From Hericium rajendrae (Eukaryota; Basidiomycota; Agaricomycetes; Russulales; Hericiaceae): a DNA stretch of 64,000 nucleotides. The translations under genes and the position numbers were made by a program. The notes under the pieces were generated by a model that saw nothing but the letters and a program-made list of their open reading frames with translations, searched no databases and had not been told where the DNA came from. This document shows, in pieces, positions 23,352-63,367 of this stretch. Position 1 is the first letter of the stretch. Each line of letters starts with the position of its first letter. The stretch covers positions 2,108,001 to 2,172,000 of the forward strand of contig CM065885.1 of NCBI GenBank assembly GCA_033439255.1, in the 5' to 3' direction.

Positions 23352-24583
23352 TCAAGACGACTGACCGGATGCCTGCTTACCATCGTCGGAGGCGTCGTAG
23401 AGCAACCGTAAGATCTCTGCGCCCTTGCCAGGTTTGGCAGGTTTGTCCACGTCACGGTACCACACGCGTTGGCCCCGCGCAAACAACTCGCCTTCCACCG
23501 GCACGTTCAGATTACACGTCGGCGGCACGTCGAGACGACGCTTCGGAGGCTGCAGGATCTTCAGCAGGCGCATCACCACGATGCGTCTGCCCGCGTGTTG
23601 CGGGAGGGTCGAGCGCTCCAGGCGGCACAGCGCCGACCCCGCTGCGGGAGAACGACCATGAGCGCTGCCCGCCGGACATGCAGCATCGAGAGCTCACCTT
23701 CGTGAACCAGGTACTTGTCTTTCTCCAGGTAGTATCTCAGCGGCCCGTCTGTATGGTACCGCCGGACCTGCCCCGCGACGCGCACGACAAAACTTAACGT
23801 CCGGTTCGTGAAGTCGAATATGAATGGCTGGTCGAGCACGCTCATGGAGCGCTTGAGGCGGTAGAATTCCAAACGGGATAGCGGGCGCGCCTGAAGCTGA
23901 GCGACGAGCGCGTTATCGATAAGTCCATCGCGCACGAGCATCTCGCGCAACTTGGGACTCTGCGCGGCCCTCGTGAGTGGGATGTGCCGGGTAAATCCGC
24001 TGCCGTACGTGAGGTCGTGCCCAGAACTAAAGCTCCGTGAAGGGTCGTGGTCCTGTGTGACTCGGAAGCGGATCTGCGACTGCAGCGGATTATGGGCGTC
24101 CGGGTGGAAGTAGAGGAACCCATGCGTGCCTGGCGGGAAGGGCCCGGGCACAGAGCCCTTGCTGGAAACAGTGTATGCCATGCTCAGCAAGCGCAAGCTT
24201 GAGGTGCGATCGTAGATGTGGACATAAGTGCAGCCAAAGACGTCCAGGAAGCAGCCGGAGTCGAGTCGCGCAGGGTCAAGCGTCGCGGTCGTCCGATCGG
24301 GACGACGCCGTCTTCCTGAGTATATCGGAGTCAATTCGAATGTTCTATAAGCCTGAGAATGCTGCGGTGGCGGATAGGCTCCAGTATGAGCGGCAGGATG
24401 TTCTCTTTGGTTGTTGACGAAAGATAAGTCTGCATTGACATCGCGCGACTTAGTAGATGGTTGGGATGTGGAGCTCAGACGACCAGTCTGTGAAGGCCAA
24501 AAGTCTTGTGCCCAAGATCTGCATCGCTTTGAAGGAGAAAGCAGGCCTGATGCCCGTATAAATAATTTGCCGGACATGTCCAC
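23352..24583 (-). CDS. Cassette protein B1 (unknown function, paralogue family)
   Basis: First of nine paralogues. Exons 24583-23698 and 23641-23352 flank a 56-nt intron (GTGAGC...CCGCAG) and give 391 aa. The N terminus is basic, Ser/Thr-rich and nearly free of acidic residues for about 45 residues, resembling a mitochondrial presequence. A P/S/T-rich linker with an RRRR cluster follows. The conserved core has TLDPARLDSGCFLD, GFLYFHPDAHNPLQSQIRFR, SSGHDLTYGSGF, VRDGLIDNALVAQLQA and KYLVHE; after the intron come GSALCRLER, WYRDVDKPGK and ILRLLYDAS. Its start (MDMSGK...) differs from the MRPSF start of the other copies. The convergent neighbour on its 3' side is PhoD, not an S gene. I recall similar unannotated proteins in Polyporales but no function. 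Confidence 0.75.
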
Positions 24584-24960
24584 ACGGCGCTATGATTGGA
24601 ACTCGTTCAGCTGTAAGACATACAGTGTAAAAGAACAAATAGGCTGTACCTGCCTGTGGCCGGCCTGAAACTTCAAATATGAAATGCTATTATGCGACTG
24701 TGAGCTGGGCACACAGCGACAAGGCTAACTTATGCAAAATTAGTCTCACAGGAGCAGAATAGACAGGAATCGACGCTTCGTACCTCAGGATCGTCTGTCT
24801 GTGTTTGATATAGTTGTTACTAAGTACTAGTCTCAAGTTTAAGTTCAAAAGCGAGCGCACGCACTGGATGATGATGTCGAGGGCGTTCAACACTGAAGAC
24901 AATATCCGTTCTGTGTAAGTATTGAGGAGAAGTTGACTCTGATGAGTTCAAGTCCATATT

Positions 24961-24988
24961 AGACGCCCGCCATGCATCGTGTGTCTTA
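24961..24988. promoter_or_regulatory. Conserved inverted-repeat element upstream of B1
   Basis: AGACGCCCGCCATGCATCGT followed by GTGTCTT lies between divergent B1 and T-A. It is one of seven copies of the AGACGC-spacer-GCGTCT element found upstream of B genes; here the distal arm is changed to GTGTCT. The adjacent TTACGT matches the TTACGTCAG flank of the other copies. Confidence 0.5.
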
Positions 24989-25094
24989 CGTATGTAGTAC
25001 GTACGCGAATAACTCAACCTTCCTCCTTGTTCGTACGAGATCTGGCAGCAGTGAGTATCACTCTAGGTACATTACGAGGCAAAAAAGTGTCTTT

Positions 25095-25567
25095 GTATCC
25101 TGCTCATCGACATCCTTGAGGTGAACAATGCCGGCGAATGGTCGCGTCTGACTCTGCCCCCGCGACGCCCTCCCGTCTCCCATGGAGGAACTCGACCCCA
25201 AGCTTCATCTTCTGGACTGGATCACCGAGCCACTTCTCGTTAGCAGCTCGGATATCGCAGATGAGACTTGGGTGAACCCAACTCGTACGTACCGTGGTAA
25301 CTCGCCTCTGACGCAGCCGCACACATCGCGGTACTCTTCGATGCGAGGGACGTATAATGTTGCACTCTGGGTCAGCTGAAGAAACTCCATGGGGAAGCAA
25401 ATAATGTTCACTTCGAGTCCACACATATGCATAGGTAACTTTGTATCAAGGTTGACGACTCGATCTTCACGCCGCCGCTTACTACTTCATATAGGCGATA
25501 GATGAGCGAAAACCAGAACCCCAATCGATAAAAGCCCAGCACAGACAAACAATATGCTAGGACCATG
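25095..25567 (+). pseudogene. Cassette part T, copy A (degenerate)
   Basis: This spliced unit lies upstream of, and on the same strand as, the S gene. The equivalent of the MLLVDVLK start is here ILLIDILE with ATG changed to ATC. A conserved segment reads LDPKLHLLDWITE. The donor ATAG/GTAACT near 25434 and an acceptor TATAG before GCGATAG (about 25496) bound an intron shared by all T copies. The conserved AAAGCCCAGC and CTAGGACCAT elements follow (25530-25567). The frame is interrupted, and this copy looks non-functional as a protein gene. Confidence 0.45.
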
Positions 25568-25654
25568 GAAGAGGACAGTACTCGCCGCGACATTGGTGGC
25601 ACATCTGCGGCCCAGTGGGCCTTCCACCAAAGGAAACCGGCCCTTCACCAGAAG

Positions 25655-25664
25655 ATATATAGAG
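25655..25664 (+). promoter_or_regulatory. TATA box of S copy A
   Basis: GATATATAGAGC lies about 45-50 bases upstream of the S-A start codon. The same TATA context (TATATAGAGC followed by a CGAGCGCAT-like stretch) precedes S copies B, C and E and the solitary copy. Confidence 0.55.
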
Positions 25665-25705
25665 CCTTCGGGCGCATGATGTCAACACAAAACCCATCGC
25701 GCCGA

Positions 25706-26071
25706 TTCATCAACATGAATTTGTTCGACCTTGTCCAATATCCTAAACCCAACCCAAATGTCAGGAACGAGGATGTATACCCGCACCACAAGTCAAATTC
25801 GAGTCCAGGTGATTTATCATAGAACAACTGAGGGTTTCTGGCTTGCCAACATGTCAACCCTCGCGCGTCTGTTCCAATGCCATGCTCACAACGCACTGGA
25901 CAGGGCTCAAACCTGTACGAATAATTCGAAAGTGCGGCCGCAAATTACGACTTCATGCACCTTGCCGACGGCGGGCTCCCCATCTACATGTGCGGCCGGT
26001 GTGGCTGGTATTCTCACAACCAAGAATCCAATGATGACCATATAAGAGAGCACCGCCGCATGCGAAAATAA
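25706..26071 (+). pseudogene. Cassette part S, copy A (broken zinc-knuckle gene)
   Basis: The start MNLFDLVQYPKPNPNVRNED matches intact S copies. The splice donor is lost (CACCACAAGT), and the segment encoding the middle of the protein is deleted and out of frame. The C-terminal knuckle is still readable as HLADGG ... CGRCGWYSHN, but its last cysteine is replaced by histidine (C-x2-C-x12-H-x3-H). It converges on B2, leaving about 195 bp between the stops. Confidence 0.6.
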
Positions 26072-26266
26072 TTGGGCTAGTCGGCTGCTGCTGCTCACGC
26101 CGGAAGCACCAGCAAATGAGGTTGATGCATCTATAATCTTTTATATTTTATGTCGCGTGTATTTGTTGTATCTGTGGTGTAACGTGCTATTCTGTTCTAT
26201 CTGCATGATTACTTCATGTCAATAGCTCATTTAACCGGACTCACCGATGGAGGACCGGATGGCAGG

Positions 26267-27495
26267 TCACGATGACTGGCCGGATGCCTGCTCACCATCG
26301 TTGGGGGCCTCATAGAGCAATCGTAAGGTCTCTGCGCTCTTCCCAGGTTTGTCTACATCACGGTACCACATGCGTTTATCAAACTTGAACAGCTCGCCTT
26401 CCGCCGGCACGCTCACATTACACGTCGGCGGCAGATCGGGACGAAGCTTCGGAGGCCGCACGATCTTCAGCAGGCGCATGATTATGATGCGTCGACCCGC
26501 ATGTTGCGGGAGGGTAGAACGCTCCAAGCGGCATAGCGCCGACCCCGCTGCGGCAGAAGATGCATGAGCATTTCCCGCCAGATATGCAGCATTGAGACCT
26601 CACCTGCGTAGACAAGATATTTCTTCTCACGCGCCATGAAGTAGTTCAGCGGCGTGTTTGTCTCATACCGCCGGTCCTCCCCCACCGCGCGCACGGTAAG
26701 ACACAGCATGCTCCTCTTGAACTCGAGCAGGAATGGTTGGCTGAGGGCGCTCATGCTACGCTTCAGGCGGAAAGAGCGCTTATTGGATCCCGAGTGCGCC
26801 TGTAGATGCGCGAGGAGCGCGTTGTTGATAAGCCCATCGCGCAGGAGCATATCACGCAGCGTGGGGTTCTTCGTGACGTGCGCGAGGGGGATGTGCCAGA
26901 TATAGCCGCTGCCGTACATGAGGTCGTGTCCGGATGCGAAACCACGCGCAGGGTCACTGTTCTGCGTCACACGGAATCGGATTTGCGACCCGAGGGGATT
27001 CTGCTCGTCTGGATGGAAGTACAGGAAGCCGCGCGTAGCAGGCGGGAAGCGCCTCGGCACAGTGTCCTCATAACTATAATTCATGGAAAGCACGCGCAAG
27101 TTCGAGAAGTCAGGAGCAGCGCGATAATAGACGTGGTTATAGGTGCGGCCAGAGACGTCCAGGAAGCAGCTGGTATTGAGTCGCGCAGGGTCGAGCGTTG
27201 TAATCATGCAACGTAGTGGTTTTCCAGATCTGCGCCTTTTTGGAGTTAGCTCGGTAGGTGTAACTCTTCCATTAGGCAACGAATGCTGGGGTATGGAAGA
27301 GGCTGCTGCAGGACGTGGTCCGTGTTTGATAGTGGGAGACAGGTCTGCATTGGCATCATGCGACTGCGCAGATGCTTGAGATGTGAAGGTTAAACGACTG
27401 CTACTTGTGGTCCGTGGACAGATCCTGCATCGCTTTGAAGTCGAACTAAATAGGACGCCTGACGGCCATTGAGCTCGTATAAATGATGGCCTCAT
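26267..27495 (-). CDS. Cassette protein B2 (unknown function, paralogue family)
   Basis: Exons 27495-26604 and 26547-26267 with a 56-nt intron (GTGAGG...GCCGCAG) encode 390 aa. The start MRPSFIRAQWPSG is shared with most paralogues and lies in a basic, acid-poor N terminus (about 50 residues). Core motifs in order are TLDPARLNTSCFLD, GFLYFHPDEQNPLGSQIRFR, ASGHDLMYGSGY, LRDGLINNALLAHLQA and KYLVYA, then, after the intron, GSALCRLER, MWYRDVDKPGK and TLRLLYEAPNDGE. B2 is closest to B3: both have PDEQNPLGSQ and LAHVTKNPTLRDM. It converges on broken S-A. The reading frame is whole. Confidence 0.75.
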
Positions 27496-28549: not shown

Positions 28550-28559
28550 GCGCAGGGAG

Positions 28560-29020
28560 CAGCATACGGTCTGAAACTGATTTATTGTCAGGCGGTTGCT
28601 ACATGAATTCTACATGTACTTAGTTACATTATATATACTCAGTGATTTTCAACAAGCTTGTAATAAACTGCTCAATTAATTGTCTTTGAGAGATCCAACA
28701 TGCAATAGCATCAATTGTCAAGGTAAACTGTCAATTGAGGATCCCGATGTGTTGTAAACGAGTCTGGCAGGCTTCGCCAGCCATTGTTTACGCGGTGCTT
28801 TAGCGGAGGTGCTCGCCCAATGCAAATCCATACGCAAGCGCAACCCCTGCTGCCTCCGCCACCACCTCCCCTCCCTCCCTCTCATATTAATTAATTAATT
28901 CAATCTGCCTCCGTTTTTAGCCCACCTATAAACCTATTGCCTCCCCAAACCATTCCCATCGTTCGTACAACTACACATAACAGTGGGTATATCAGTCTAG
29001 GTAAGAGGCGAGTGATTTTG
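28560..29020. other. AT-rich intergenic spacer
   Basis: No gene is seen. Contains TTAATTAATTAATT near 28888 and pyrimidine tracts at 28855-28885. The end of the stretch (about 28985-29010) carries the TATCAGTCTAGGTAAGAGGC sequence found just upstream of several T copies. Confidence 0.5.
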
Positions 29021-29520
29021 ATGCTGCTTGTCGACGTCCTGAAGATAAGCAATGCCTGAGAGTGGTCGCATCTACCCTCCGTGGCATCCTCCCCGCGGAT
29101 GAACATGACCATAAACTTCATTTCCTTGACCGGATCACCAGGCTACTTCCCGTTAGCAGCTGAGAGTAGTGCAGATGGGACTTGGAGACGCCAGACTCGC
29201 ATGTCTTGTGCTTGCCGCGATACATGGCCTCTACCGCACTGCTAGCCTCGCAGTTTGCTCGCGATAGAGGTCAGGTATCACGGTGAACATGGAATCGATG
29301 TGAGGGACGTATGAGGCGTTGCGGATCGGCTGAAAAAATATCCTTGCAGAAATATCTCGTCTTCACCGCAAGTCCGCACACATGCGTAGGTAAGTCTTTA
29401 TTTGTGTCAACTCGGTACTCGGCTATGATGCCACGGTTTACTACTTCATTCAGGCGATAGCTATAAGTATACCGAGAGACAAAAGCCCAGCCCGGACCGA
29501 TCCTTATTATACTAGGACCG
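29021..29520 (+). pseudogene. Cassette part T, copy B (degenerate)
   Basis: Starts ATGCTGCTTGTCGACGTCCT (MLLVDVLK) and continues with a segment matching DHKLHFLDRITRLLPVSS and LCLPRYMASTA of the family. The frame has several stops. The internal intron is well preserved: donor GTAG/GTAAGT near 29391 and acceptor TTCATTCAG before GCGATAG near 29452. The AAAGCCCAGCC and ACTAGGACC elements close the unit at 29480-29520. Confidence 0.45.
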
Positions 29521-29670
29521 AGGAAGGGGAAAGAACTTGCTGCGACAGTGGTAGCGTGTCTGCAGAAACAAGATTGACCTTTCTCCTGTGTGCCAGGCAT
29601 TGTCACCAAAGGAAACCGACCATCCCAAATTACATAAAGTCTCTTCCGCTTTGTTCACCACCACCAGAAG

Positions 29671-29738: not shown

Positions 29739-30253
29739 ATGACTTCATTTGGTCATAGGCAACATCCCAAACCCAACCCAGATGCCAGACCTGAAGACGT
29801 CTACCCCCACCGCAAGCCGTGTCCACTTCGAGCATATGGTACACCATTGGTGTTCATCTCCAGCCCTCCCTCCTCACGCCAATCCCGAAGAGACGATCCA
29901 ATGGGCATTCAAAATCCTTGACCGGTTTCTTCCCAGAGATGTCCTGTTACTGCGTGCCTTGGGGTTGTGGCCGAGTTGGGGTCTCCAACCGATAAACAGG
30001 CACTACCCTAAAGCAGACATTAGCCGCCATTATGTTCGTCAAGGCGTGCCCGCTTCAAAGCGCTGCTCACGACACACTGGACCGTGCTCAAATCCCTCGA
30101 CGAGTTCGAAATGTTGGCAGCCGCGAGTACGACGTCGTGCACCTTGCTGACGGTGGGCCCCATTCTGCATGTGCGGCCTGGTGTGGTTGGTACTCTCACA
30201 ATGAAAAATCTAATGACAACCACATGAAAGAGTGCTGCAGCAATCAGAAGTAG
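29739..30253 (+). pseudogene. Cassette part S, copy B (broken zinc-knuckle gene)
   Basis: Exon 1 (29739-29811) encodes MTSFGHRQHPKPNPDARPED and VYPH. The intron begins GCAAGC rather than GT and ends CTCCAG. Exon 2 starts at 29864 with PLPPHANPEETIQWAFKILD and then loses frame near 30030. The rest is readable in another frame (DTLDRAQIPRRVRNVG and VVHLADGG). The knuckle is altered to C-x3-C with the downstream H and C kept. It converges on B3 with about 200 bp between the ends. Confidence 0.6.
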
Positions 30254-30454
30254 TTAGACTGGTCAGCTGGTCAGCAGCAGCCGACACAGGAAGCACCAGC
30301 AAACGAAGTTAAATGCATCTATGATCTTTTGTATTTTATGTCGTGTGTATTTGGTGTGTCTGTGGCGTGTTATGCCATCCTTCTCTATCGGCATGATCAC
30401 TTCATATCAATAAATTATTCGGCTAGATTCATCAACAGAGGACTGCATACCAGG

Positions 30455-31674
30455 TCACGACGACTGGCCGGACGCCGGCTCCCCATCGTTTGGGGCATCG
30501 TACAGCAATCGTAAGATCTCTGCGCCCTTGCCAGGTTTGCCCACGTCACGGTACCACACGCGTTGGCCCCGCGCAAACAACTCGCCTTCCACCGGCACGT
30601 TCACATCACACGTCGGCGGCACGTCGAGACGACGCTTCGGAGGCCGCACGATCTTCAGCAGGCGCATCACCACGATGCGTCGGCCCGCATGTTGAGGGAG
30701 GGTGGAGCGCTCCAAGCGACACAGCGCCGACCCCGCTGCGGCAGAAGATGCATGAGCGCTGCCCGCCAGACACGCAGCATTGAGATCTCACCTGCGTAGA
30801 CAAGATATTTGCCGTACTCCGTGTAGTATGTCAGCGGCCCATTTGTCCTGTAGCACTGGTCCTTCCCCATGACGTGCACGGTAAGATACAATACGCTCTG
30901 CTTTAACTCGAGCAGGAATGGTTGGCTGAGGGCACTTATGCCACGCTTGAGGCGGCGAGGGACAGCACTCGATGGGTAGTGCGCCTGCAGCTTCCCGAGG
31001 AGTGCATCGTCGACAAGCCCGTCGCGCAGGAGCATATCGCGCAGCGTGGGGTTCTTCGTGACGTGCGCGAGGGGGATGTGCCAGACATAGCCGCTGCCGT
31101 ACATGAGATCGTGTCCGGATGCGAAGCCACGCGCAGGGTCGCTGTTCTGCGTCACACGGAATCGGATTTGCGACCCGAGGGGATTCTGCTCGTCCGGGTG
31201 GAAGTATAGGAAGCCGCGTGTGGCCGGCGGGAAGCGCCTCGGCGCAGTGCCCTTGTAAATGTATTCCATGGAAAGCAAGCGCAAGCTCGAGAAATCAGGA
31301 GCAGCGCGATCGTAGACACGATTATAGGTGACGCCAGAGACGTCCAGGAAGCAGCTGGAATCGAGTCGCGCAGGGTCAAGCGTCGTAATCATGCAGCGTG
31401 GTGGTGGTCCAGGTCTTCCCCTTTTTGGAGTCAACTGGGCAGGTGCGAATGTTCCATCAGGCGAGAAATGCCGGGGTGAGGGATGTGCGGGAGGATGTGG
31501 TCCCTGTTTGACAGCCGAAGGCGAATATGCGTTGTCATCGCGCGAATTGGTGGATACTTGAGACGTGTACTTTAGACGACCAAAGTTCTGTGGCCGAGCT
31601 CTGCATCGGCACTTTGAAATTGATTCAGAAAGCAGGCTTGACGGCCAGTGGGCCCACATAAATGATGGCCTCAT
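30455..31674 (-). CDS. Cassette protein B3 (unknown function, paralogue family)
   Basis: Exons 31674-30792 and 30735-30455 with a 56-nt intron give 387 aa from MRPSFMWAHWPSS. An upstream in-frame ATG at 31707 would add 11 residues, but the family start is preferred. Core motifs are TLDPARLDSSCFLD, GFLYFHPDEQNPLGSQIRFR, ASGHDLMYGSGY, LRDGLVDDALLGKLQA and KYLVYA, then GSALCRLER, VWYRDVGKPGK and ILRLLYDAPNDGE. Close to B2 in the core, but its 3' exon is closer to that of B1 (VPVEGELFARGQRVWYRDV), which hints at exchange between copies. The AGACGC inverted repeat is not recognisable upstream of this copy. Confidence 0.75.
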
Positions 31675-31707
31675 AGAGCGCATACACGGCGCTATGGTTG
31701 GATTCAT

Positions 31708-40934: not shown

Positions 40935-41540
40935 TGCTAGGACCATGAATGGGGCAAAGAGGCAAGACTTGCCATGACATGTGTGGCACGGGAAATGGCA
41001 CTGAAGCTTTATCCCTCCCCTGTGCTGTGAGGCACCTCTATTCAGTGCGCACCAGATGACAAAGGCTCCAGCGATACTGCCTTGCCTGCGTGCCACCCAA
41101 TCCCAGTAAATGAACGCGGCCGTACCTCCCACTTTTTCTGTTCCCGCCTCAAGGTATATATATAGAGTGCTCGAACGCAGCATATCGACACGAAACACGA
41201 GATCCTTCAACCCTGACAAGTTCATCAACATGCAGCATAAATCTACCCTGTATACTGCAGCCAACGCGTACCTCCAGAGCATGTCTTCTCCCGCTCCCCA
41301 CATGATGCACCGCTGACCGCTATCCTTGCTCATCTACAGGCATTGCCACGAACGGCACACCTGCGCAGGGCGCGCCAAACACTCCTCCCCAAACCTCGCG
41401 AGACGACGGCCGCGGGCACGTCGTCGTTGACATCGGCGACGGAGGCGCCTCGTTCTACAAATGTCGATGTGGATGGTACTCACCCGACGAAGAATCCAGT
41501 AAGAGGCACATGAAAGAGTGCGGCGGCACTCAGAAATAAC
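40935..41540 (+). pseudogene. Solitary relative of cassette part S
   Basis: The upstream elements of S genes are present: GCTAGGACCAT at 40936-40946 and GTATATATATAGAGTGCTCG at 41154-41173. A start MQHKSTLYTAANA (41231) is followed by an intron ending CATCTACAG (41340). The last exon reads GHVVVDIGDGG then a knuckle CRCGWYSPDEESSKRHMKEC (C-x-C-x12-H-x3-C) and GGTQK, stop at 41540. No donor gives the right phase, so the gene may be broken or use a start I have not found. No B or T partner lies beside it. Confidence 0.45.
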
Positions 41541-45029: not shown

Positions 45030-45547
45030 TTATTTTTGACTGCCATGGCAGTCTTTCATGTGATGGTCATTGGATTCTTTATCGTGAGAGTACCAACCAC
45101 ACCGGTTGCACATGTAGAACGGGGGCCCGCCGTCAGCAAGGTGCACGACGTCATACCCGCGGCCGCCGACATTTCGAACTCTTCGAGGGATCTGAGCACG
45201 GTCTAGCGCGTCATGAGCATCGCGTTGAAGCATGCGCGCCCTGGTGGACAGAACAGGGATCAACATCTGCTCTGGGGTATAGTGCCTGTTCTTGGGCTGG
45301 AGACCACAATCCAATGCAGTCTTCACGGCTTGCGATAGTAGGACGTCTCTGGAGAAACATGGGCCAAGGACGTTGTATGCCCATTGGATCGTCTCCGTGG
45401 GGTTGGCGTCAGGAGGGAGGGCTGGATGGACATCAGTGATGTACCGTATGCGCGAAGTGGATGCGACTTGCGGTGCGGGTAGACGTCCTCGGGCCTTACA
45501 CTGGTGTCTGATTTGGGTTCGTGTTGGCTATGATCAAACGAGGTCAT
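45030..45547 (-). CDS. Cassette protein S-C, CCHC zinc-knuckle protein
   Basis: Exons 45547-45472 and 45421-45030 give 155 aa. The intron begins GC (CACC/GCAAGT) and ends CATCCAG, a GC-AG intron. The protein starts MTSFDHSQHEPKSDTS, has a proline-rich PEDVYPH segment, a helical middle (ETIQWAYNVLGPCFSRDVLL, KNRHYTPEQM, DALDRAQIPRRVRNVG) and ends VVHLADGGPPFYMC then C-x2-C-x12-H-x3-C (CNRCGWYSHD ... HHMKDCH). Such a knuckle binds zinc and may contact nucleic acid or protein; the function is unknown. TATA at 45603-45612. Converges on B4. Frame whole; one of two intact S copies. Confidence 0.65.
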
Positions 45548-45612: not shown

Positions 45613-45760
45613 CTTCTGGTAGTGACAGACAAAGCGGAAGGGGTTTTACTTTGTAGGGGTTGGTTTCCTTTGTTGATAATGCCCGGCACGCGGGCAAAAA
45701 GTCTATCTCGTTTCCGCAGACATGCCACCATATTGTCGCGGCGAGTCTTTTTTCCCCTTC

Positions 45761-46131
45761 ATAGTCCTAGCGTGGTAAGCATTTGCCTAGGCTGGGCTTT
45801 TATCCACAGCTTTGCGTTTACCTACCGCCTCATATGAACTATTAAAAGGTAGCATGACGGCTGAATAACGAGTCAATCTGGATACAATCTCACCTGTGTA
45901 TATACGTGGACTTGCAGTGAAGATGAGATACCTCCAATGGGGTCCTCCAGTCGGATCAGCGCCGCGCCCCATACGCCCGTTGCATCGAGGACTTCCCAGC
46001 CCAGTGATTCAGTCGAGGAAATGAAGCTTGTGGTCGAATTTGTCCGCGAGGAGGACGTCGTGGAGGACAGATAGGGGCAGATGTGACCATTCACTGGCAT
46101 TGCTTACCTGGAGCACGTCGACGAGCAGCAT
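45761..46131 (-). pseudogene. Cassette part T, copy C (degenerate)
   Basis: Starts at 46131 with MLLVDVLQVSNASEWSHLPL and continues VLHDVLLADKFDHKLHFLD, then a stop, then an in-frame stretch ending RYLIFTASPRIYTG at the conserved intron donor ACACAG/GTGAGA. This is the most readable T copy and suggests what the ancestral protein looked like, with only one clear stop in the first exon. The acceptor side of the intron is altered. The CTAGGACTAT form of the shared element lies at 45761-45771. Confidence 0.45.
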
Positions 46132-46228
46132 GAGAATCACTTGCCTATTGCTTAGACTGATACACAGCACTACTGTTGGTTCTCGTACTTAGTATGAACG
46201 TGGGGGAAGAGATTTTGAAAGTTGTCGC

Positions 46229-46458: not shown

Positions 46459-47702
46459 ATGAGGCCATCATTGATACGAGCTCAATGGACGTCAGGCGTC
46501 CTTTTTGGTTCGACTTCAATACGATGCAGAATCTGCCCACAAAAATTTTGGTTCACAAGTAACAGTCGTTCAATCTCCACGTCTCAAGCATCTACGCAGT
46601 CGCACGATGCCAATGCAGACATGTCTTCCACCACCAAACACGGACTACGGCCTGCCGTCGGTTCTGCAGCGTCTTCCTTGCCCCAGCATTCGTCGCCTAA
46701 TGGCATAATTCCACCTACCCAGTCGACTCCAAAAAGACGAAAAGTTGGACGACCACGGGACTCCACGATTACAACGCTCGACCGTGCGCGACTCAATCCC
46801 AGCTGCTTCTTGGACGCCTCTGGCCACATCTATCTCTACATCTACGATGTTGCTGCTCCAGAAGCTCCAAGAATGTTGCGCATGACATACACAACTACGC
46901 TTACCGACAAGCAGAGGTTCCCGCCGGACACGCACGGGTTCCTCTACTTCCACCCGGACGCACACAATCCCCTCGAGTCCCAGATCCGCTTTCGCGTCAC
47001 GCAGGACCGCGACCCCACGCGTAGTTTTGCATCCGGGCATGATCTCAGGGACCCTAGTGGTTACATCTGGCACATCCCCGTCGAGCACGCCACGAAGGCA
47101 CCAACGCTGCGCGAGATGCTCCGACGCGACGGGCTTGTTGATGACGCGCTCTTCGCTCAGTTACAGGCACGCACGGGGTCCCGCACAAGACCGCGCCGCC
47201 TCAAGCGTGGAATAACCAGCCTCAGCCAACCATTCACGCTCGAGTTCAACAGGAAAACATTTCATCTTATCGTGCGCGTCGCTGAGCAAGACCGGATGTA
47301 CAAGACAGTCGCACTGCTGAGATTCTACACGAAGCACGGTCAATACCTGGTTTACAAAGGTGAGGTCTCGACGTTGCATCTCCGGCGGACAACGCTCATG
47401 GTCGTTCACCCGCAGCGGGTTCAGGGCTATGCCGCTTGGAGCGCTCGGACCTCCCGCAACATGCGCGCCGACGTATTGTGATGATGCGCCTGCTGAAGAT
47501 CCTGCAGCCTCCAAAGCTTCGTTCCGATCTGCCGCCGACCTGTGATGTGAGCGTGCCGGCGGAAGGCGAGTTGTTCACGTGGGAGTCTGGCCAACGTGTG
47601 TGGTACCGTGATGTGGATAAACCTGGGAAGGGCGCAGAGATTTTACGATTGCTCTATGATGTCCCCGACGATGGTGAGGAGGCGTTCGGCCAGTCGTTAT
47701 GA
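46459..47702 (+). CDS. Cassette protein B5 (unknown function, paralogue family)
   Basis: Exons 46459-47359 and 47416-47702 with a 56-nt intron encode 395 aa. Starts MRPSLIRAQWTSG; the basic N terminus contains RCRICPQKFW. Core: TLDRARLNPSCFLD, GFLYFHPDAHNPLESQIRFR, ASGHDLRDPSGY (where others have TYGSG), RRDGLVDDALFAQLQA, SLSQPFTLEF and QYLVYK, then GSGLCRLER (Ala changed to Gly), VWYRDVDKPGK and ILRLLYDVPDDGE. The second exon has a small insertion before the WYRD motif. Convergent with broken S-D. Frame whole. Confidence 0.75.
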
Positions 47703-47863: not shown

Positions 47864-48433
47864 TTATTTTCGATTGCCATGGCACTCTTTCATGTGCTGG
47901 TCGTTGGATTCTTTGTCGTGAGAGTACCAACCACACCGGTTGCACATGTAGAACGGGGGCCCGCCGTCAGCAAAATGCACGACGTCGTACTCGTGGCCGC
48001 CAACATTTCGAACTCGTCGAGGGATTTGAGCACGATCCAGCGCGTCGTGAGCGGCGCTTTGAACCTTGTGCGCCCTGAAAAACAGAGCAGCGGCGAACAT
48101 CCGCTCTGGGGTATAGTGCCTGTTCTTGGGCTGGAGACCACGCTCCACTGCGCCCTTCACGCCTTGCGATATAAGGACGTCTCTGGGAAAAAATGGGCCA
48201 AGGACTTTGAATGCCCATTGGATCGTCTCGTTGGGATTGGCTTTAGGAGGGGGGCTGGACGGACATCAGCAGTGTACCATATGCGCGGAGTGGATACGAC
48301 TTACGGTGGGTAGACAGTGGGTAGACGTCCTCGGGCCTTACACTGGCGTCTGATTTCTCTTGTGTTGGCTATCTCGTTTCTGGAGACATGCCACCAATGT
48401 TTGGCAAGCCTCCGCCCCTTAAATGGTCCTAGC
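47864..48433 (-). pseudogene. Cassette part S, copy D (start and promoter deleted)
   Basis: The knuckle region is intact in frame (VRNVGGHEYDVVHFADGG then C-x2-C-x12-H-x3-C, ending HGNRK at 47864). The intron is present with a GT donor. However, exon 1 has no start codon: about 170-190 bp that hold the TATA box and ATG in S-C are missing, with CTAT at the junction (48368-48372 region). A one-base length change at the start of exon 2 also breaks the frame. Probably not expressed as a protein. Confidence 0.6.
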
Positions 48434-48755
48434 ATGGTAAGTATTTGTCTGGGCTGGGCTTTAATCCATTGGAGTACAGCTTTTCGTTCACCTATTGCGT
48501 ATGAACTGTTAGAAGGTGGCATGAGGGTGGAGTTACGAGTCGTCGACCTGGATACAAACTCACTTTTGCACATGTGTAGACTTGCAGTATCCCAGCTGTT
48601 AACGGGGAGCAGCTCGGTGATCCAGTCAAGGTCATGAAGCTTATGGTCGCGTTCAAGTTTCTCGCGGAAGGGCGTCGAGTTGTCGGTGGCAGAGTCACAC
48701 ACGACCACTTGCCGGCATCGCTTACCTTCAGGATGTCGAGCAGCACAGAACACAC
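48434..48755 (-). pseudogene. Cassette part T, copy D (degenerate)
   Basis: Starts MCSVLLDILK at 48755. A second frame reads REKLERDHKLHDLDWITELL and PVNSWDTASLHMC up to the conserved donor AAA/GTGAGT. The long NXYT-like middle segment of copies B and E is absent, so this copy is shorter. Frame switching within the first exon suggests decay. Confidence 0.45.
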
Positions 48756-48830
48756 TTGCCTCTTACCTAGACTGATACATAAATTGTTAGATCTCGTGCG
48801 AACGAAAGAAAGGAATTTGTGATATTCGCG

Positions 48831-49072: not shown

Positions 49073-50357
49073 ATGAGGCCATCATTCATACGAGCTCGGT
49101 GGCCGTCAGGCCTGCTTTCCAGTACAACTTCAAAGCGATGCAGGATTGGACCGCAAAAGTTTTGGCTCACAAGTAGCAGCCGCTTATTAAACATATCTCG
49201 CGAATCTACGAAGTCAACGCAGACTTGCCTCCCACCATCAAACAAGGATCGCGGCCTGCCGAACGTCCTGTATCATTTTCTCCATCCCAGGATCCTCCGA
49301 CCGCTGTAACAGTCGCACCCGTCGAATTTGCACCAAACAGGCGAAGACGTGGACGTCCGCTAGGATCGCTAGGATCGCGACGTTATATCACGACCCTTGA
49401 TCCTGCACGACTCGACTCCAGCTGCTTCCTGGACATCTCTGACTGTTTCAACTTCTACGTCTATGATGCCATTTTCCCCGATCGCCGGACTCAGAACTTC
49501 CTGAGAGCGCAATACAATTCCAGTGTCAACCCGCGCAGGGTTCAACTATGCTTCCCGCAGGACACACGCGGATTCTTCTACTTCCATGAGGACACACAGA
49601 ATCCGCTGCAGTCGCAGATCCGCTTTCGCATTGCGCATGACCGCGACCCCACACGTAGCTTTGCCTCCGGGCATGATCTCACGTATGGCAGTGGGTACAC
49701 TTGGAACACCCTGCTCGTGAACGCCACGAAGCGTCCCGCGCTGCGCGCGATGCTCCTGCGCGACGGGCTTGTCGACGACGCGCTCCTCGCGCAGCTACAA
49801 CCGCGCTGGGGATCTGATAAGCGCTTGCTCTTTGCGCCGAAAGCGTGTCATGAACGCCCTCGGCCACCCGATCACGATGGAGTTCAATAAAAAGTTTTTG
49901 TATTTTGTCGTGCGCGTTGCTGGTCGGGACCGGGAGTACGGGACACGTGGGCCGCTCGTGTCCCGAGAGTTTGTGTTCTACGAAGGTATGGCCTTTACCC
50001 TCTGTTTGATGGGCCTGCACTCACGCTTATCTTCCTGTAGAGGGGTCGGCGCTGTGCCGCTTGGAGCGCTCCACCCTCCCGCAGCACACGGGCAGACGCA
50101 TCGTAGTGATGCGCCTACTGAAGATACTCCATCCGCCGAAGCGTCGTCCTGAGCTGCCACCGACAGGTGGTGTCAGCATCCCGGCGGAAGGCGAATTGTT
50201 CAAGTCGTGGTGCCGGGACGTGGACAATCCTGGGAGGCGTGGAGAGACCCTGAGATTGCTCTATGATGCTCCCGGCAATGTTGAGCAGCCGTCCGATAGG
50301 TCGCCATGGCTTGCTATGCAGTCCTCCGTTGACGAATCCGGTCCAATGAGCTATTGA
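49073..50357 (+). pseudogene. Cassette gene B6 (frame-broken copy)
   Basis: Starts MRPSFIRARWPSG and follows the family pattern, but the frame is broken at least twice. A 10-base deletion relative to paralogues lies near 49209 (after STKS), and a second length change lies near 49830 before RKRVMNALGHPITMEF. All core motifs are present in pieces: TLDPARLDSSCFLD, GFFYFHEDTQNPLQSQIRFR, SGHDLTYGSGY, LRDGLVDDALLAQLQ, then past the intron (GTATGG...CTGTAG) GSALCRLER, WCRDVDNPG and LRLLYDAP. It is closest to B7. It is the only B copy without a continuous frame. Confidence 0.7.
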
Positions 50358-50509: not shown

Positions 50510-51039
50510 CTATTTCCGAATGCGGTGGCATTCTCTCATATGGCTGTCATTGGATTCCTCGTTGTGAGAATACCAACCACAACGGCCGCACATGTAGACG
50601 GGCGGCCCACCGTCGGCAAGATGCATGATGTCATATCCGCGATCGCCGACATTTCGAATTCTTCGAGGGATTTGAGCCCTGTCCAACGCGTTGTGAGCAC
50701 GACTCTGGTACAGGCGCGCGAGAGTCGATAGGCCAGAGGCCCTTAGCTGCTCTGAGGAAAATCGCCTGTATTCGGGTTTGATGCCATGGACCATCTCCCA
50801 CCTCGTAGCCACGAATAGGAGGAAGTCTCTGGAGAAAAACGGGTCGAGGACTTTGAAGGCCCATTGCATCTCCTCCTCGGGTGTTGCATTAAAGGGGAGG
50901 GCTGGAAAGAAACAAGAACTGCGGTCAATGGTGCAACACCACATGCGGGAAGTGGACGTGACTTACGGTGCGGATATACGTCCTCATGCCTGACATTTGG
51001 GTTGGGTTTGGGATATTGGCCAAGGTCGAACGAACTCAT
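50510..51039 (-). CDS. Cassette protein S-E, CCHC zinc-knuckle protein
   Basis: Exons 51039-50967 and 50901-50510 with a 65-nt intron (GTAAGT...CTTTCCAG) give 154 aa. Reads MSSFDLGQYPKPNPNVRHED, VYPHPLPFNATPEEEMQWAF, KVLDPFFSRDFLLFV, LRASGLSTLARLYQS, NALDRAQIPRRIRNVG, then IMHLADGG and C-x2-C-x12-H-x3-C (CGRCGWYSHNEES ... HMRECH), ending RIRK. The knuckle and the RAQIPRR segment are the most conserved parts of the family. TATA at 51094-51104. Convergent with the broken B6, so here the S partner is whole while B is not. Function unknown; zinc binding is inferred. Confidence 0.68.
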
Positions 51040-51104: not shown

Positions 51105-51250
51105 TTCTGGTCGTGTTAGCCTGCAAAGCGGTAGGGATATCGCTTTGCAAGGGCCGGTTTCATTCGGTGGAACTGGGCGGCAGGCGGGCAAAGCGTCAAT
51201 CTCGTTGCCGCAGACGTGCCACCAATGCCGCTCCAAGTCATTTCCCCTTC

Positions 51251-51740
51251 CATGGTCCTAGCGCATACCTGTCTAGGCTAGGCTTTTATCGATTGGAACT
51301 CAGTTTTTCGCTCACCTATCGCCTGTATGAAGTAGTAAATGGCGGCGTCAAGTTACGAGTCGTCGACCTGGAGACAAACTCACCGGTGCATACGTGTGGA
51401 CTTGCAGTGAAGACTGCATACTTCCACACGGGGTTCCTCCAGCCGACCCAGCGCATCACATATACCCCATACGTCCCTTACGTCGAGGACTACCACGATG
51501 TGTGCGTTGCTTCAACTTGCGGTAGAGGCCGTGTATCACGGTAAGCACATGGCCTGCGAGTTGGGCGTTACCCACATCTCATCTGCACTAGCCCAGCTGC
51601 TAATGGGAAACAGCACAGTGACCCGGTCAAAAAATGAGGCTCACAGTGGTCGAATTCGTCCGCGGGGAGGGCGCCGCGGAAGGCAGAGTCAGATGCGACC
51701 ATACGCCGGCATTACTCACCTTCAGGATGCCGAGCAGCAT
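51251..51740 (-). pseudogene. Cassette part T, copy E (degenerate)
   Basis: Starts MLLGILKVSNAGVWSHLTLP at 51740. Later pieces read SWASADEMWVTPNSQAMCLP and KYAVFTASPHVCTG up to the conserved donor ACCG/GTGAGT; the acceptor CATACAG before GCGATAG closes the intron. Stops and a four-base length difference from copy C break the frame. The CATGGTCCTAG element (reverse of CTAGGACCATG) lies at 51251-51262. The opposite strand also has a long open frame here, but the splice signals and start support the minus strand. Confidence 0.45.
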
Positions 51741-51863
51741 GTAAAAGCACTTGCATAGACGGTCAGATAGCCTCTACCGTGTTGAATCTCGTAAGGACGA
51801 GGAGGGTTCAGTGGGAAGGATGGTTGTCATAGGTTGTTGTCATATTCGCGTACCAGTCACTGG

Positions 51864-52157: not shown

Positions 52158-53455
52158 ATGAGGCCATCATTTATACGAATACAGTGGCCGTCAGGCCTGC
52201 TTTCTAGTACTCCAACTTCAAAGCGATGCAGGCTTGGGCCGCAAATTTTCTGGCACACAAGTGGTGGCAGTCGTTTGAACTCCACATCTCAACCATCTAC
52301 GAAGTCGCACAAAGTCAACACAGACTTACCTTCCACCCTCAAACAAGGATCGCGGCCTGCCGAACGTTCTGTAGCCTGTTCTCCATCCCAGGATTCTCCG
52401 ACCGCCGGAACAGTCGCACCCGTCGGATTGACACCAAACAGGCGAAGGGGCAAATGTCGGCGACGTCTTATCACGACGCTTGACCCTGCCCGACTCGACT
52501 CCAGCTGCTTCCTGGACGTCTCCGGCTTCAAAAATCTCCACGTCTACGATGCCGCTTTCCCGAAATCCCCGAATCCGAGCTTGCTGAGCGCGCAATACCA
52601 TTACAACCCGCACAGGGTTAAACAGTGCTTCCCGAAATCCCCGAATCCGAGCTTGCTGAGCGCGCAATACCATTACAACCCGTACAGGGTTAAACAGTGC
52701 TTCCCGCAGGACACACGCGGATTCTTCTACTTCCACGAGGACACACAGAATCCGCTGCAGTCGCAGATCCGCTTTCGCATTGCGCATGACCGCGACCCCA
52801 CACGTAGCTTTGCCTCTGGGCATGATCTCACGTATGGCAGCGGGTACACGTGGAACATCCTGCTCGTGAACGCCACGAAGCGTCCTGCGCTGCGCGCGAT
52901 GCTCCTGCGCGACGGGCTGGTCGACGATGCGCTCCTCGCGCAGCTACAGGCGCGCTCAGGATCCGGTAAGCGTTCTTCGCGCCGAAAGCGTGTCATGAAC
53001 GCCCTTGGCCACCCGATCACGATGGAGTTCAATAAAAGGACGTTGTATTTTGCCGTGCACGTTGCTGATCAGGACCGGGAGTACGAGACACGCGGGCCGC
53101 TCGTGTCCCGAGAATCTGTGTTCTACGAAGGTATGGCCTCTATCCTCCGTGTTTGATTGGCAGCACTCATGCTCGTTTTTCCGTAGAGGGGTCGGCGCTG
53201 TGCCGCTTGGAGCGCTCCACCCTCCCACAGCACGCGGGCAGACGCATCGTAGTGATGCGCCTGCTGAAGATACTCCATCCGCCGAAGCGTCGTCATGAGC
53301 TGCCACAGACGGATGGTGTCAGCGTCCCGGCGGAAGGCGAATTGTTCATGTCATGGTACCGTGATGTGGACAAACCTGGGGAGGGTGGCGAAACCCTGAG
53401 ACTGCTCTATGATGCCCCCGACAACGTTGAGCAGGTCTCCGACTGGTCGTCATGA
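52158..53455 (+). CDS. Cassette protein B7 (unknown function, paralogue family)
   Basis: Exons 52158-53130 and 53187-53455 with a 56-nt intron (GTATGG...TCCGTAG) encode 413 aa, the longest copy. An upstream in-frame ATG lies at 52149. Motifs: MRPSFIRIQWPSG, RLITTLDPARLDSSCFLD, GFFYFHEDTQNPLQSQIRFR, SGHDLTYGSGY, LRDGLVDDALLAQLQA and MNALGHPITMEF, then GSALCRLER, WYRDVDKPGEGG and LRLLYDAPDNVE. The extra length comes from an in-frame 75-bp tandem duplication (52558-52707) just before the GFFYFH motif. No S gene follows; instead its 3' flank belongs to a large inverted duplication shared with B8. Confidence 0.77.
52558..52707 (+). repeat. 75-bp in-frame tandem duplication inside B7
   Basis: CCGAAATCCCCGAATCCGAG ... 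TTAAACAGTGCTTC is present twice in a row, the copies differing by one base (CCGCACAGG versus CCGTACAGG). It duplicates 25 residues (FPKSPNPSLLSAQYHYNP ... VKQC). No other B copy has it. The near identity implies a recent event. Confidence 0.9.
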
Positions 53456-53984: not shown

Positions 53985-54554
53985 TCAAACAAGAGGCGAC
54001 CCGCGCGACGTGTGCAACACCGCAGGCACAGGCTCGGTACTGCGCGACACGCTTGGGGCTGGCACGCCGGAGACCAGATGCTTTCCCTGGACTTTCCACG
54101 TCCCGGTCGCCTTCGCTGAAGGTCCTCGCTCGTTGGCATTTCGCGCATGTTCGGCGCCTAACCGGGCCTTGGTGTTGCGCGTCCCCTTCTGACTTATCTT
54201 GGGCATGCCGGACAACGGCAGCTCCTCGTTGGACGGCCTGCCCTTTTCGGCCTTGCTCCGAGAGCGCTTAGGGACTGCCAGCCTGTGCTTGGCTGCGGAC
54301 GAGACGGGGTAAGCTCCCCATGGGTATTGGAGGCTGTCAGAGATGCACGCACGTTGTGGAGAAAGCCGCCTGAGTCCGTTTTCCCTGTGCGGGTCGCGAG
54401 CGTCGAGCTCGATCAAAGCGAGAAGCTTTGGCGGGGTGGGAGACCGGACGCAGATGATGGGCGTGCTATCGCTCTGCGCGGGGGAAGGAGCTTCGGGCTT
54501 CGTCTTGCGCTGCTCCTTGACAAGGGGCTGCTTGGTGTTGCGTTGAGCTGGCAT
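53985..54554 (-). CDS. Small basic protein, unknown function (left arm copy)
   Basis: Exons 54554-54353 and 54292-53985 with a 60-nt intron (GTGCGT...GTCCGCAG) give 169 aa. Lys/Arg/Ser/Pro-rich and probably disordered: MPAQRNTKQPLVKEQRKTKP, PKLLALIELDARDP, LRRLSPQ, KHRLAVPKRSRSKAEKGRPS, GAEHARNANERG. The cluster KRSRSKAEKGR could be a nuclear localisation signal. From about 54120 an alternative frame gives a cysteine-rich stretch (SIWSPACQ ... SLCLRCCTR ... CLCELCPNR), which is also present in the right arm, so the true C terminus may be reached by another splice. I do not recognise the family. Confidence 0.4.
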   Translation of the reverse strand: MPAQRNTKQPLVKEQRKTKPEAPSPAQSDSTPIICVRSPTPPKLLALIELDARDPHRENGLRRLSPQRACISDSLQYPWGAYPVSSAAKHRLAVPKRSRSKAEKGRPSNEELPLSGMPKISQKGTRNTKARLGAEHARNANERGPSAKATGTWKVQGKHLVSGVPAPSVSRSTEPVPAVLHTSRGSPLV

Positions 54555-59231: not shown

Positions 59232-59821
59232 CCCATACCAATATTCCTGCTCAACGCAACACCAAACAGCCCCTTCTCAAAGAGCAGCGCAAAACGAAGC
59301 CCGAGGCTCCTATCCCTGCGAAGAACGTCAGCGAGCCCATCGTCGGTGTCCGGCCTCCCATCCCGCCAACGCTTCTCAATCTGACCGAACTCAACGATCA
59401 CAACGGCCCTCCGGGGCCCGCCGATCTGCACAGGCAAAACGAACTCAGGCGGCTTTCTCCAAAATGTGCGTGCATCTCTGACAGCCTTCAGCAGCCATGA
59501 GGAGCTTACCCCGTCTCGTCTGCAGCCAAACACAGGCTGGCAGTCCCTGAGCACTCTCAGGGCAAGGCCGAAAACGGCAGGCCGTCCAACGAGGAGCTGC
59601 CGTTGTCCGGCATGCCCGAGATAAGTCAGAAGACCAAGGAGCAACTGGGCGCCGAGCATGCGCATAATGTCAACGAGCGGGGACCTTCAGCGAAGGTGGG
59701 TGGGACGTGGAAAGATCAAGGAAAGCATCTGGTGCCCAGCGTGCGGGCCTCCAGCGTATCGCGCAGCACCGAGTCTGTGCCTGCGGTGTTGCACAAGGCA
59801 CGCGGGTCGCCTCTGGTTTGA
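59232..59821 (+). pseudogene. Small basic protein gene, right arm copy (decayed)
   Basis: Homologous to 54554-53985. The start codon is replaced (ATG to ATT, before PAQRNTKQPLLKEQRKTKPE). The first exon remains open to LRRLSPK at the donor GTGCGT near 59466, and the second exon (from about 59524) reads KHRLAVPEHSQGKAENGRPS ... SPLV with stop at 59821. The alternative cysteine-rich frame is also kept (SIWCPACGPPAYRAAPSLCL ... CVNCARIV). Loss of the start suggests an inactive copy, unless transcription starts elsewhere. Confidence 0.45.
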
Positions 59822-60350: not shown

Positions 60351-61548
60351 CTACTCAATGTTGTCGGGGGCATCATAGAGCAACCTGAGGGTCTCGCCAC
60401 ACTTGCCAGGTCTGTCCACATCACGGTACCACGACTTGAACATTTCGCCTTCCGCCGGGATGCTGACACCATCTGTTTGTGGCAGCTCAGGACAACGCTT
60501 CAGCGGATGGAGTATCTTCAGCAGGCGCATCAACACGATGCGTCTCCCCGCATGTTGCGGGAGGGTGGAGCGCTCCAAGCGGCACAGCGCCGACCCCCCT
60601 AAGGAAAGCGAGCATGAGTGCTGCCCGTCAAACGCGGAGGACAGAGGCCATACCTTCGTAGACCACAGACTCTCGGGACATGAGCGGCCCGCTTGTCTTG
60701 TACGCCCGGTCCTGACCAGCGACGTGCATGACAACATGCAGCTCTTTCTTGTTGAACTCCATTGTGAATGGGTGGCGAAGGGTGTTCATGACACGCTTTC
60801 GGCGTTTACCGACTCCCGAGCGCGCCTGTAGCTGCACGAGGAGCGCGTCGTCGACCAGCCCGTCGCGCAGCAGCATCGCGCACAGCGCGGGATACTTCGA
60901 CGTGGCGTTCGCGAGCAGGATGCTCCAGATGTACCCGCTACCATACGTGAGATCATGTCCGGAGGCAAAGCTACGTGTGGGGTCGCGGTCCTGCGTAACG
61001 CGGAAGCGGATCTGCGACTGCAGCGGATTCTGTGTCTCCTCATAGAAGTAGAGGAACCCGCGCGTGTCCTGCGGAAAGCGCAGGTGATCCGCACGCTTGT
61101 TGGAATAATAGTAGACTTTCAGGAGGCTCTGTTTCGGGGATTTGGGGAAAGCGGCATCGTAGACGCGGAAATTCCTGAAGCCGGAGACGTCCATGAAGCA
61201 GCTGGAGTCGAGTCGTGCAGGGTCAAGCGTCGTGATAAGATGTCGCGTCCATTTACCCCTTCGCTTGCTTAATGCCAATTCGTCGGGTCCGACTGTTCCA
61301 GCGTTTGGTGGATCCTGAGGTGGAGAAAAGGCAACAGGACGTTCGGCAGGCCGCGATCCTTGTTTGGTGGTGGGAGGTAAGTCTGAGTTGATATGGCACG
61401 ACTTCGTAGTAGACGCTTGAGATGTGGAGATTAAGCGACTGTTACTTGTAAACCAAAATTTTTGCGATCCAATTCTGCATCGATTTGAAGTTGATTTGCT
61501 AGAAAGCAGGCCTGACAGCCACTGAACTCGTCTAAATGATGGCCTCAT
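60351..61548 (-). CDS. Cassette protein B8 (unknown function, paralogue family)
   Basis: Exons 61548-60654 and 60598-60351 with a 55-nt intron (GTATGG...TCCTTAG) encode 380 aa from MRPSFRRVQWLSG. Motifs: basic N terminus, LITTLDPARLDSSCFMD, GFLYFYEETQNPLQSQIRFR, SGHDLTYGSGY, LRDGLVDDALLVQLQA and MNTLRHPFTMEF, then GSALCRLER, WYRDVDRPGK and LRLLYDAPDNIE, where it stops about ten codons earlier than most copies. It is the inverted-duplicate partner of B7 but without the 75-bp internal repeat. It is divergent from B9, sharing a 540-bp upstream region. No S or T partner. Confidence 0.77.
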
Positions 61549-61755
61549 ATAGCGTTTTACGCGGCGGCTCGCGCTATGTTTAAATTTGTTCAGACACACT
61601 ATGGTAAAGAAGGAATGGAATGTACCTGGACGTCGAAGGCTGCTACTCAGCGAGACAGACAGAGACGGATTGGTGCGTTGAATGTCGATGTCAAGGGCGT
61701 CCGACACTGAAAGACAATTATTGTATTGAGGAGAGTTCAAGTTCATATACATATT

Positions 61756-61790
61756 AGACGCCCGCCCTGCATCATGCGTCTTACGTCAGT
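61756..61790. promoter_or_regulatory. Conserved inverted-repeat element between B8 and B9
   Basis: AGACGCCCGCCCTGCATCAT then GCGTCTTACGTCAGT: perfect AGACGC and GCGTCT arms. Here the element lies between two divergent B genes rather than between T and B, so one copy may serve both. Confidence 0.6.
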
Positions 61791-62090
61791 ACTTCGACTT
61801 CAACTAACTTCATTTACTTACTCCAGAGTATACGTCGATCCTGAGGCCTTGAGGCACGAAGGTTGAGTCAAGTATCTAGTCTGCCTCTGGGAGACTACCG
61901 CAGACGTCAGAACGATTGTCTTCACTGCGGCTCTTCAGTGTCGGACACCTTCGACAAGGTTATCCAACTCGTCGCGAGTCCGTCTGCGTCTCGCTGCGTA
62001 GCCACATCTGACGTCGAGGTACGTTCAACTCTTTCTTTACCATAGTGAGTCTAAATGAATTTATCATAGCAGTGCCGAGTATTCCATTCT

Positions 62091-63367
62091 ATGAGGCCAT
62101 CATCTATACGAGCTCAGTGGCCCAGAGGCCTGCTTTCTATCACTTCAAATTCAAAGCGATGCAGGATTGGGCCGCAAAAGCTTTGGCTCACAAGTAGCAG
62201 TCATTCAAACTCCACACCTTATACTCAAGCTTCTACGAATTCGCGCGATGTCAATGCAGTATTGCGTCCGACCATCAGACAAGGATCACAGCCTGCCGCA
62301 CGTCCTGCAGCCTCTTCCCTACCTAATGGAACAGGCGCACCTACCGAGTCGACTCCAAAAAGGCGAAGAAAAGGATTACGACGACGTTGCACAATAACGC
62401 TCGATCCTGCGCGACTCAATTTCAGCTGCTTTCTGGACGTCTCTGGCATCAAATATCTCCGCATCTACGATTCCGCTGCTCCCGAATCCCGGAGCTTGCT
62501 GGACATGACATACACTTCTAGCAGGGGCGGTGTGCAACTTGTGCACGATCCCTTTCCGCCGGACACACGCGGCTTTCTCTACTTCCATGCGGACGCGCAT
62601 AATCCGCTGCAGTCGCAGATCTGCTTTCGGGTTACGCGAGACCACGACGCCGCACGGAGCTTCAGTTGCGGGCAGGACCTCACGTACGGCAGCGGCTACA
62701 CCTGGCACATCCCGCTCGTGAATGCCGCGAAGAGTCCCACGTTGTGCGAAATGCTCCTGCGCGATGGACTTATCGACGACGCCCTCCATGCGCAGCTGCA
62801 GGCGCATCCGCCATCCGCCACGGGCTCCCATCGCACAATGCGCCTCAAGCGCGCCATGAGCGTGCTCGACCAGCCGTTCATACTCGACTTCGCAAAGTGG
62901 ACATTGTATCTTGTCGTGCATGTCGCGGGGCGGGACCTGCGATACGATACAGGCGGGCCGTTGACATACCGCACGGGGAAAGGCAAGTACCTGGTTTATG
63001 AAGGTGAGATCTCGATGTTGCATGTCCCGCGGGCAGTGCTCATGCTCGTTCTCCTGCAGCGGGGTCGGCGCTATGCCGCTTGGAGCGCTCGAACCTCCCG
63101 CAACATGCGGGCCGACGCGTCGTGGTGATGCGCCTGCTGAAGATCGTGCGACCTCCGAAGCTTCATCCCGATCTGCCGCCGACGTGTAATGTGAGCATAC
63201 CGGAGGAAGGCAAGCTCTTCAAGTTTGGTGAACGCGTATGGTACCGTGATGTGGATAAACCTGGGAAGGGCGCAGAGATCTTACGATTGCTCTATGATGT
63301 CCCCAACGATGGTGAGCCGGCGTCCAGCAGGCTGTCGTGGCCTGCCATGCAGTCGGCCGCATCCTAG
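62091..63367 (+). CDS. Cassette protein B9 (unknown function, paralogue family)
   Basis: Exons 62091-63003 and 63060-63367 with a 56-nt intron (GTGAGA...CCTGCAG) encode 406 aa. Starts MRPSSIRAQWPRG. Core: TLDPARLNFSCFLD, GFLYFHADAHNPLQSQICFR, SCGQDLTYGSGY (other copies have SGHD), LRDGLIDDALHAQLQA, VLDQPFILDF and KYLVYE, then GRRYAAW replaced in the spliced frame by GSALCRLER-type sequence, VWYRDVDKPGK and ILRLLYDVPNDGE, with a C-terminal extension of about ten residues. Its core is closest to B4, but its 3' flank resembles those of B7 and B8. No S or T partner follows. Confidence 0.75.

Follow-up and report, generated by a model that had tools for sequence, protein, structure and literature searches.

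The 64,000-nt stretch of DNA analysed here (the window, C8:2108001-2172000) probably covers a large part of a still-changing gene array, in which a gene assigned by us as B has been copied together with passengers in the form of tandem and inverted segmental copies. The founder would have been one member of a genome-wide B family, copied within a unit of about 2.6-3.1 kb in which two other elements happened to lie, namely S, a convergent gene bearing a zinc-finger-like motif, and T, another stretch of DNA. The unit would have spread across C8:2.054-2.191 Mb by tandem and inverted segmental copying, ectopic gene conversion between B copies would have given rise to mosaics, and S and T, as passengers, would have persisted for some time before being lost. 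Lineage-specific tandem gene arrays with ectopic gene conversion are a familiar kind of genomic locus, and the C8 array resembles them in its head-to-tail and inverted copies, its co-copied neighbours, its mosaics and its pseudogenes. It differs from them in the B family itself, for which the best matches in searches with exon 1 and exon 2 had E 0.022 in Pfam and E 0.048 among the PDB profiles of solved structures. The array is ordinary in kind, as a growing array with passengers; what sets it apart is a large family that has no name and whose mosaicism is plain to see. So understood, a single locus shows the segmental growth of a family, passengers kept and then lost, and copies that exchange parts under a fixed scaffold.

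Layout of the array

The comparison of the window with itself revealed head-to-tail blocks at 43.3-46.1, 46.1-48.6, and 48.6-51.8 kb, blocks at 23.2-31.7 kb that are in the opposite orientation to this run, and an inverted pair at 52.0-54.9 and 58.9-61.7 kb. Among the self-comparison rows of at least 300 nt, the identity between array copies is 67-88% over 0.3-2.8 kb, and this resemblance is not a matter of chance. A search of the whole genome (46.8 Mb, 19 contigs) demonstrates that the B array extends past the window, with four further B at C8:2054417-2065103 and two at C8:2188839-2191163. The region of C8:2.054-2.065 Mb carries inverted copies of window 23.3-27.6 kb (87% identity) and of window 29.7-31.9 kb (84%), as well as a third block matching at 77%, and it contains one B (L011) more than the corresponding side of the window. 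Both in the window and in the comparison with C8:2.054-2.065 Mb, homology between the array copies runs past B into its neighbours.

The first-pass annotation of the window described a single rule of arrangement, in which B and S converge, S and T are co-directional, and T and the next B diverge, and by our reading of the matches this rule holds true in all five units of the window. The nine B, five S, one solitary S relative, and five T that it counted are all present in the orientation given; the part that could not be upheld is the status of T as a gene. The orientation of B, S, and T is fixed because one unit of about 2.6-3.1 kb was copied, its orientation being kept by descent, and therefore the rule cannot be taken as evidence of function.

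Structure, selection and mosaicism of the B genes

The B genes of the window are B1 (23352..24577, minus strand; two coding exons, 389 aa), B2 (26267..27495, minus; 390 aa), B3 (30455..31683, minus; 390 aa), B4 (43600..44839, plus; 393 aa), B5 (46459..47702, plus; 395 aa), B6 (49073..50310, plus, with an approximate end), B7 (52158..53455, plus; 413 aa), B8 (60351..61548, minus; 380 aa), and B9 (62091..63367, plus; 406 aa). As was proposed initially, eight of the nine keep a full frame, their spliced frames of 380-413 aa being free of internal stops; B6 is a copy broken by frame shifts, with pieces in three frames and no long gene model. The common position and phase of the coding intron proposed at the same time is seen in 9/9 window copies (55-58 nt, phase 1), the donor being GTGAGN or GTATGG and the acceptor YAG. 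In all nine B, AGGTA is found 71-79 nt and YAG 12-33 nt before the ATG (in B3 counted from its second ATG), and a second, untranslated intron in the 5'UTR upstream of the ATG is a likely candidate feature of these genes. As candidates for a promoter element, conserved words upstream of B occur in part of the copies only (3 and 7 matches).

The selective pressure on B that was suspected in the first-pass annotation is reflected in the dN/dS values, which in 78 pairs of 13 array copies are 0.35-0.64, with a median of 0.49, and thus are not near 1. Two array copies, namely, the broken B6 and L016, in which the last base of the exon differs, were left out of this calculation as well as out of the tree and the conversion test. 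The upper limit of dN/dS was below 1 in all nine bootstrapped pairs, and only 8% of copies simulated without constraint (substitutions only, lineage divergence 0.075) remained free of stops. The median dN/dS decreases along the protein, from 0.66 in the N-terminal part, through 0.46 in the core, to 0.32 in exon 2. In sliding windows, the lowest pN/pS values are those of a scaffold, 0.26-0.29 at residues 157-205 (GFLYFH...RFRI) and 0.23-0.26 at the start of exon 2, while the variable stretches reach 0.83-0.88 in the linker (residues 46-94) and the loop (residues 118-157), and 0.94-1.05 at residues 261-296. Taken together, purifying selection acts on B; its scaffold is conserved, and other stretches are nearly unconstrained.

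Certain B copies are mosaics. B2 is the counterpart of L013 by block position; its 5' part is like L013 and L011, and its core is like B3. Its identity to L013 is 90-96% from -90 to +210 and falls to 67-75% at 330-690, a region over which B2 matches B3 at 85-96%. The identity of B3 to L015 is 83-95% in most windows but drops to 75% at 270-390 and to 57-64% at 330-510; in the last part of the 3' side it is 78%. A run test on shared sites, which is based on shuffling and ignores regional differences in rate, indicated 8 of the 78 B pairs at a global p<=0.05. Three of the eight, B1-L018, B8-L021, and B2-L013, are as judged by us positional duplicates, and their long shared runs result from descent as such duplicates. 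The swap in B2 stands independently of the run test. The mosaics of B would be best explained by ectopic gene conversion between copies.

A different view of the same features is that B represents a fast-diversifying recognition family, acting in self/non-self or parasite recognition, in which gene conversion shuffles the variable stretches. The mosaic copies and the large copy number of B would agree with it, as would the 72-nt in-frame tandem duplication in the variable loop of B7 and the pN/pS near 1 at residues 261-296 beside a strongly kept scaffold. However, no stretch is clearly above pN/pS 1 (the maximum is 1.05), Pfam searches found no known recognition domain in B, and relaxed constraint on surface loops would look identical, which makes a recognition family an unlikely explanation.

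Neighbours of B: S, T and V

Two of the five S genes are intact: S4 (45030..45547, minus) has two exons, a GC-AG intron of 50 nt, and 155 aa, and S6 (50510..51039, minus) has two exons, a GT-AG intron of 65 nt, and 154 aa. S5 (47867..48250, minus) is decayed, with an open exon 2 and no in-frame, ATG-started exon 1 seen. S2 (25715..26072, plus) and S3 (29740..30256, plus) are decayed as well, the latter by a frame shift; both give matches in two frames, and their limits are approximate. The solitary S relative (41393..41527, plus) comprises the finger region only and is one residue short between the first two cysteines. S4, S5, and S6 read C-x2-C-x12-H-x3-C-H, a spacing that fits C2HC and C2H2 fingers alike; in S4 and S6 this motif forms the end of the protein. 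The broader pattern C-x2-C-x12-H-x3-5-H or -C is found in S4, S5, S6, and S2, and the parts of S3 and of the solitary S relative that were searched do not show it. The search of the genome with S exon 2 gave at least 11 matches, all at C8 2.056-2.159 Mb, with 8 of the 11 within the window.

S was once a genuine small gene, and it carries a zinc-finger-like motif. The dN/dS of its exon 2 is 0.33 (0.19-0.52) for S4-S6, 0.34 (0.19-0.57) for S5-S6, and 0.59 (0.32-1.19) for S4-S5. The value for S4-S6 implies that S was selected across copies and therefore was not a pure bystander. The best Pfam match of S4 (E 0.051) and of S6 (E 0.11), located in the same place, is zf-MYST, in both cases below the cut-off, and the match to the MOZ finger 1m36 among PDB profiles (E 0.39) is non-significant. 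In the predicted structure of S exon 2 (mean pLDDT 79.5), a three-helix part precedes the finger, and Foldseek aligned 41-42 residues of this model to the fingers of Kaiso with rmsd 2.7-2.9 and E of at least 2.6. S is similar to the C2HC finger of the MYST family and to the C2H2 fingers of Kaiso (ZBTB33) in its motif, at whose place the weak, non-significant matches also lie, but differs from them in that the three-helix part comes first and neither an acetyltransferase nor an array of fingers follows.

The T blocks are located at 25086..25610 (T2, plus), 28990..29570 (T3, plus), 45640..46170 (T4, minus), 48369..48800 (T5, minus), and 51185..51757 (T6, minus). All five are homologous at the DNA level; within the window, the T4 DNA query matched T2, T4, T5, and T6, and the T peptide matched T2, T3, T5, and T6. 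Genome searches gave at least nine matches with T4 DNA and at least five with the T peptide, all of them in the C8 array. We considered T as a gene and rejected this assignment: the alignment of the five window blocks contains many indels whose length is not divisible by three, no shared reading frame survives in it, and stops lie inside three of the five peptide matches. On account of these indels and stops, T is treated here as remains, and it is probably no longer a gene. The faster decay of S and T as compared to B, noted already in the first description of the window, is evident: B is open in 8/9 copies, S is intact in 2/5, and T has no common frame.

In the case of B7 and B8, the convergent neighbour is not S but V. 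V1 (53985..54554, minus) is a 189-aa open frame convergent with B7, its relative V2 (59243..59818, plus) contains one TGA and is convergent with B8, and a third V piece lies beside L021. Outside the array, the pairs L040/L041 and L045/L046 share other open frames beside B. Duplications of these B copies carried different neighbours with them.

The functional unit of B, S, and T proposed in the first-pass annotation finds no support in these data, since matches of S and T are confined to the C8 array, B7 and B8 adjoin V, and there is one intact B-S unit among the five. Our comparison of the co-occurrence of B, S, and T concerned paralogues of this one genome; none of the 27 dispersed B places has an S or T match because the genome-wide searches with S and T match the C8 array only. 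A true three-gene cassette (e.g., an effector with a small regulator), whose orientation was selected and most copies of which are losing S and T, would be consistent with purifying selection on exon 2 of S4-S6, with the zinc-finger-like motif and fairly confident model of S, which could thus bind nucleic acid, and with the B4-S4 unit, in which both genes are intact. Still, B occurs genome-wide, yet S and T do not occur outside the array, S or B is broken in the other four of the five units (B6 is broken beside the intact S6, and S has decayed in units 2, 3, and 5), T lacks a conserved frame, and the orientation is that expected by descent. Selection acts differently on the parts, B being kept, S being partly kept, and T having no common frame. 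We consider such a cassette improbable and infer that S and T are passengers of B rather than its partners, although B and S of the intact B4-S4 unit might act together.

The B family in the genome and its possible nature

A single B exon-1 query gave at least 46 matches in the genome, which we merged by eye into 42 places; the counts from genome searches are lower bounds. Fifteen places belong to the C8 array (nine in the window, four at 2.054-2.065 Mb, and two at 2.189-2.191 Mb) and 27 are located elsewhere, including 13 in the last 0.31 Mb of C6. As far as homology allows us to judge, B is a genome-wide family of about 40 copies. Among other families, DUF6533, which is typical of mushrooms, has 13 matches in this genome and none in 14 control genomes. 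The presence of so many copies of one family with no convincing Pfam match in a single fungal genome offers a testable target for studies of function. The earlier supposition that B has its own role agrees with the genome-wide occurrence of the family, with purifying selection, and with frames that stay open while the neighbours decay.

The first-pass annotation could name no family with a function for B, S, or T. B has no convincing match in Pfam or among solved structures, and the zinc-finger-like motif of S has non-significant profile matches. The exon-1 model built with the eight open window copies of B (mean pLDDT 54) is of too low quality for use and had no Foldseek match at E<=1e-3. The search with the B alignment found no relative in viral_contigs and genome_contigs, which are collections without fungal genomes as such. 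Titles and the openings of abstracts contained no description of the B family, which is not proof that none has been published.

The N-terminus of B is rich in R/K and S/T. Residues 1-45 of the array copies contain 6-8 K/R per copy and in 10 of the 13 copies lack D/E; the dispersed first exons are mixed, with an acidic residue at position 23 in two of the five tried. Import of B into mitochondria is conceivable but doubtful: the N-terminal composition resembles that of a presequence, but the test for an amphipathic helix does not point to one, the helical moment exceeding 95% of shuffles in 0/13 array copies. Tentatively, B might be an intracellular protein in which a fixed scaffold, made up of the GFLYFH...QIRFRV segment plus the first part of exon 2, displays variable stretches, and many slightly different copies of it might be useful, possibly in mitochondria. 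There is little likelihood that B is an undescribed fungal scaffold family whose variable stretches, reshuffled by gene conversion among dozens of copies, constitute a diversity-generating system, possibly a mitochondrial one, and that S is an array-specific regulator that arose in the C8 array.

It is highly improbable that the copied unit is a (former) transposable element or the cargo of one and its copies are insertions: copies are numerous and found in both orientations, and a Helitron-like region is located at window 13.6-17.9 kb (Helitron_like_N, E 0.0097, below the cut-off), but the array is a head-to-tail run with inverted blocks that have common neighbours, the limits of homology around the dispersed B vary by pair with no fixed ends, and no transposase is among the Pfam matches of B or S.

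The segmental copying of a B founder with its passengers is addressed also by the structure and relationships of the dispersed copies. Twenty of the 27 dispersed places were read as loci, and homology to exon 2 is kept in 19 of them, L049 being the one with no exon-2 match. The two parts of B are in different frames in 11 of the 20 loci, with a break between residues 261 and 318, as expected from an intron at about the same place; in seven loci, the two parts are bridged in one frame, and L050 is too broken for a frame call. The tree of the B core was constructed for 13 array copies and 17 dispersed ones, that is, without B6, L016, and 10 of the 27 dispersed places. In this tree, all 13 array copies cluster together (support 96/98), which indicates that they are each other's closest relatives and presumably descend from one founder.

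B copies inside and outside the array

Besides the array in the window, the genome search revealed a second cluster of relatives of the uncharacterised spliced gene B, with at least 13 places at G000:C6:2926695-3181105, in the final 0.31 Mb of contig C6. Within the array, the variable loop of the copy B7 holds an in-frame tandem duplication of 72 nt (52557-52700), the two copies of which are identical at 71 of 72 bases.

Between the copy B2 and the DNA block T3, the copied unit is broken up by an open frame of 201 aa (27944-28549), a 175-aa part of which gave no Pfam match over the cut-off.

Other features of the window

Open frames resembling a helicase occupy 13625-17890, and the first of them (13625-15085) matched Helitron_like_N weakly in Pfam (E 0.0097, below the cut-off). 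This region is possibly a Helitron remnant.

In the window self-comparison, the stretches 7875-8559 and 8803-9466 are 71% identical to each other. An open frame adjoining the copy B1 (22606-23088) matches PhoD-like phosphatase (Pfam E 2e-7, over the cut-off), and 56111-57145 is assigned by Pfam (E 3e-45) to Mid1, a component of a stretch-activated calcium channel.
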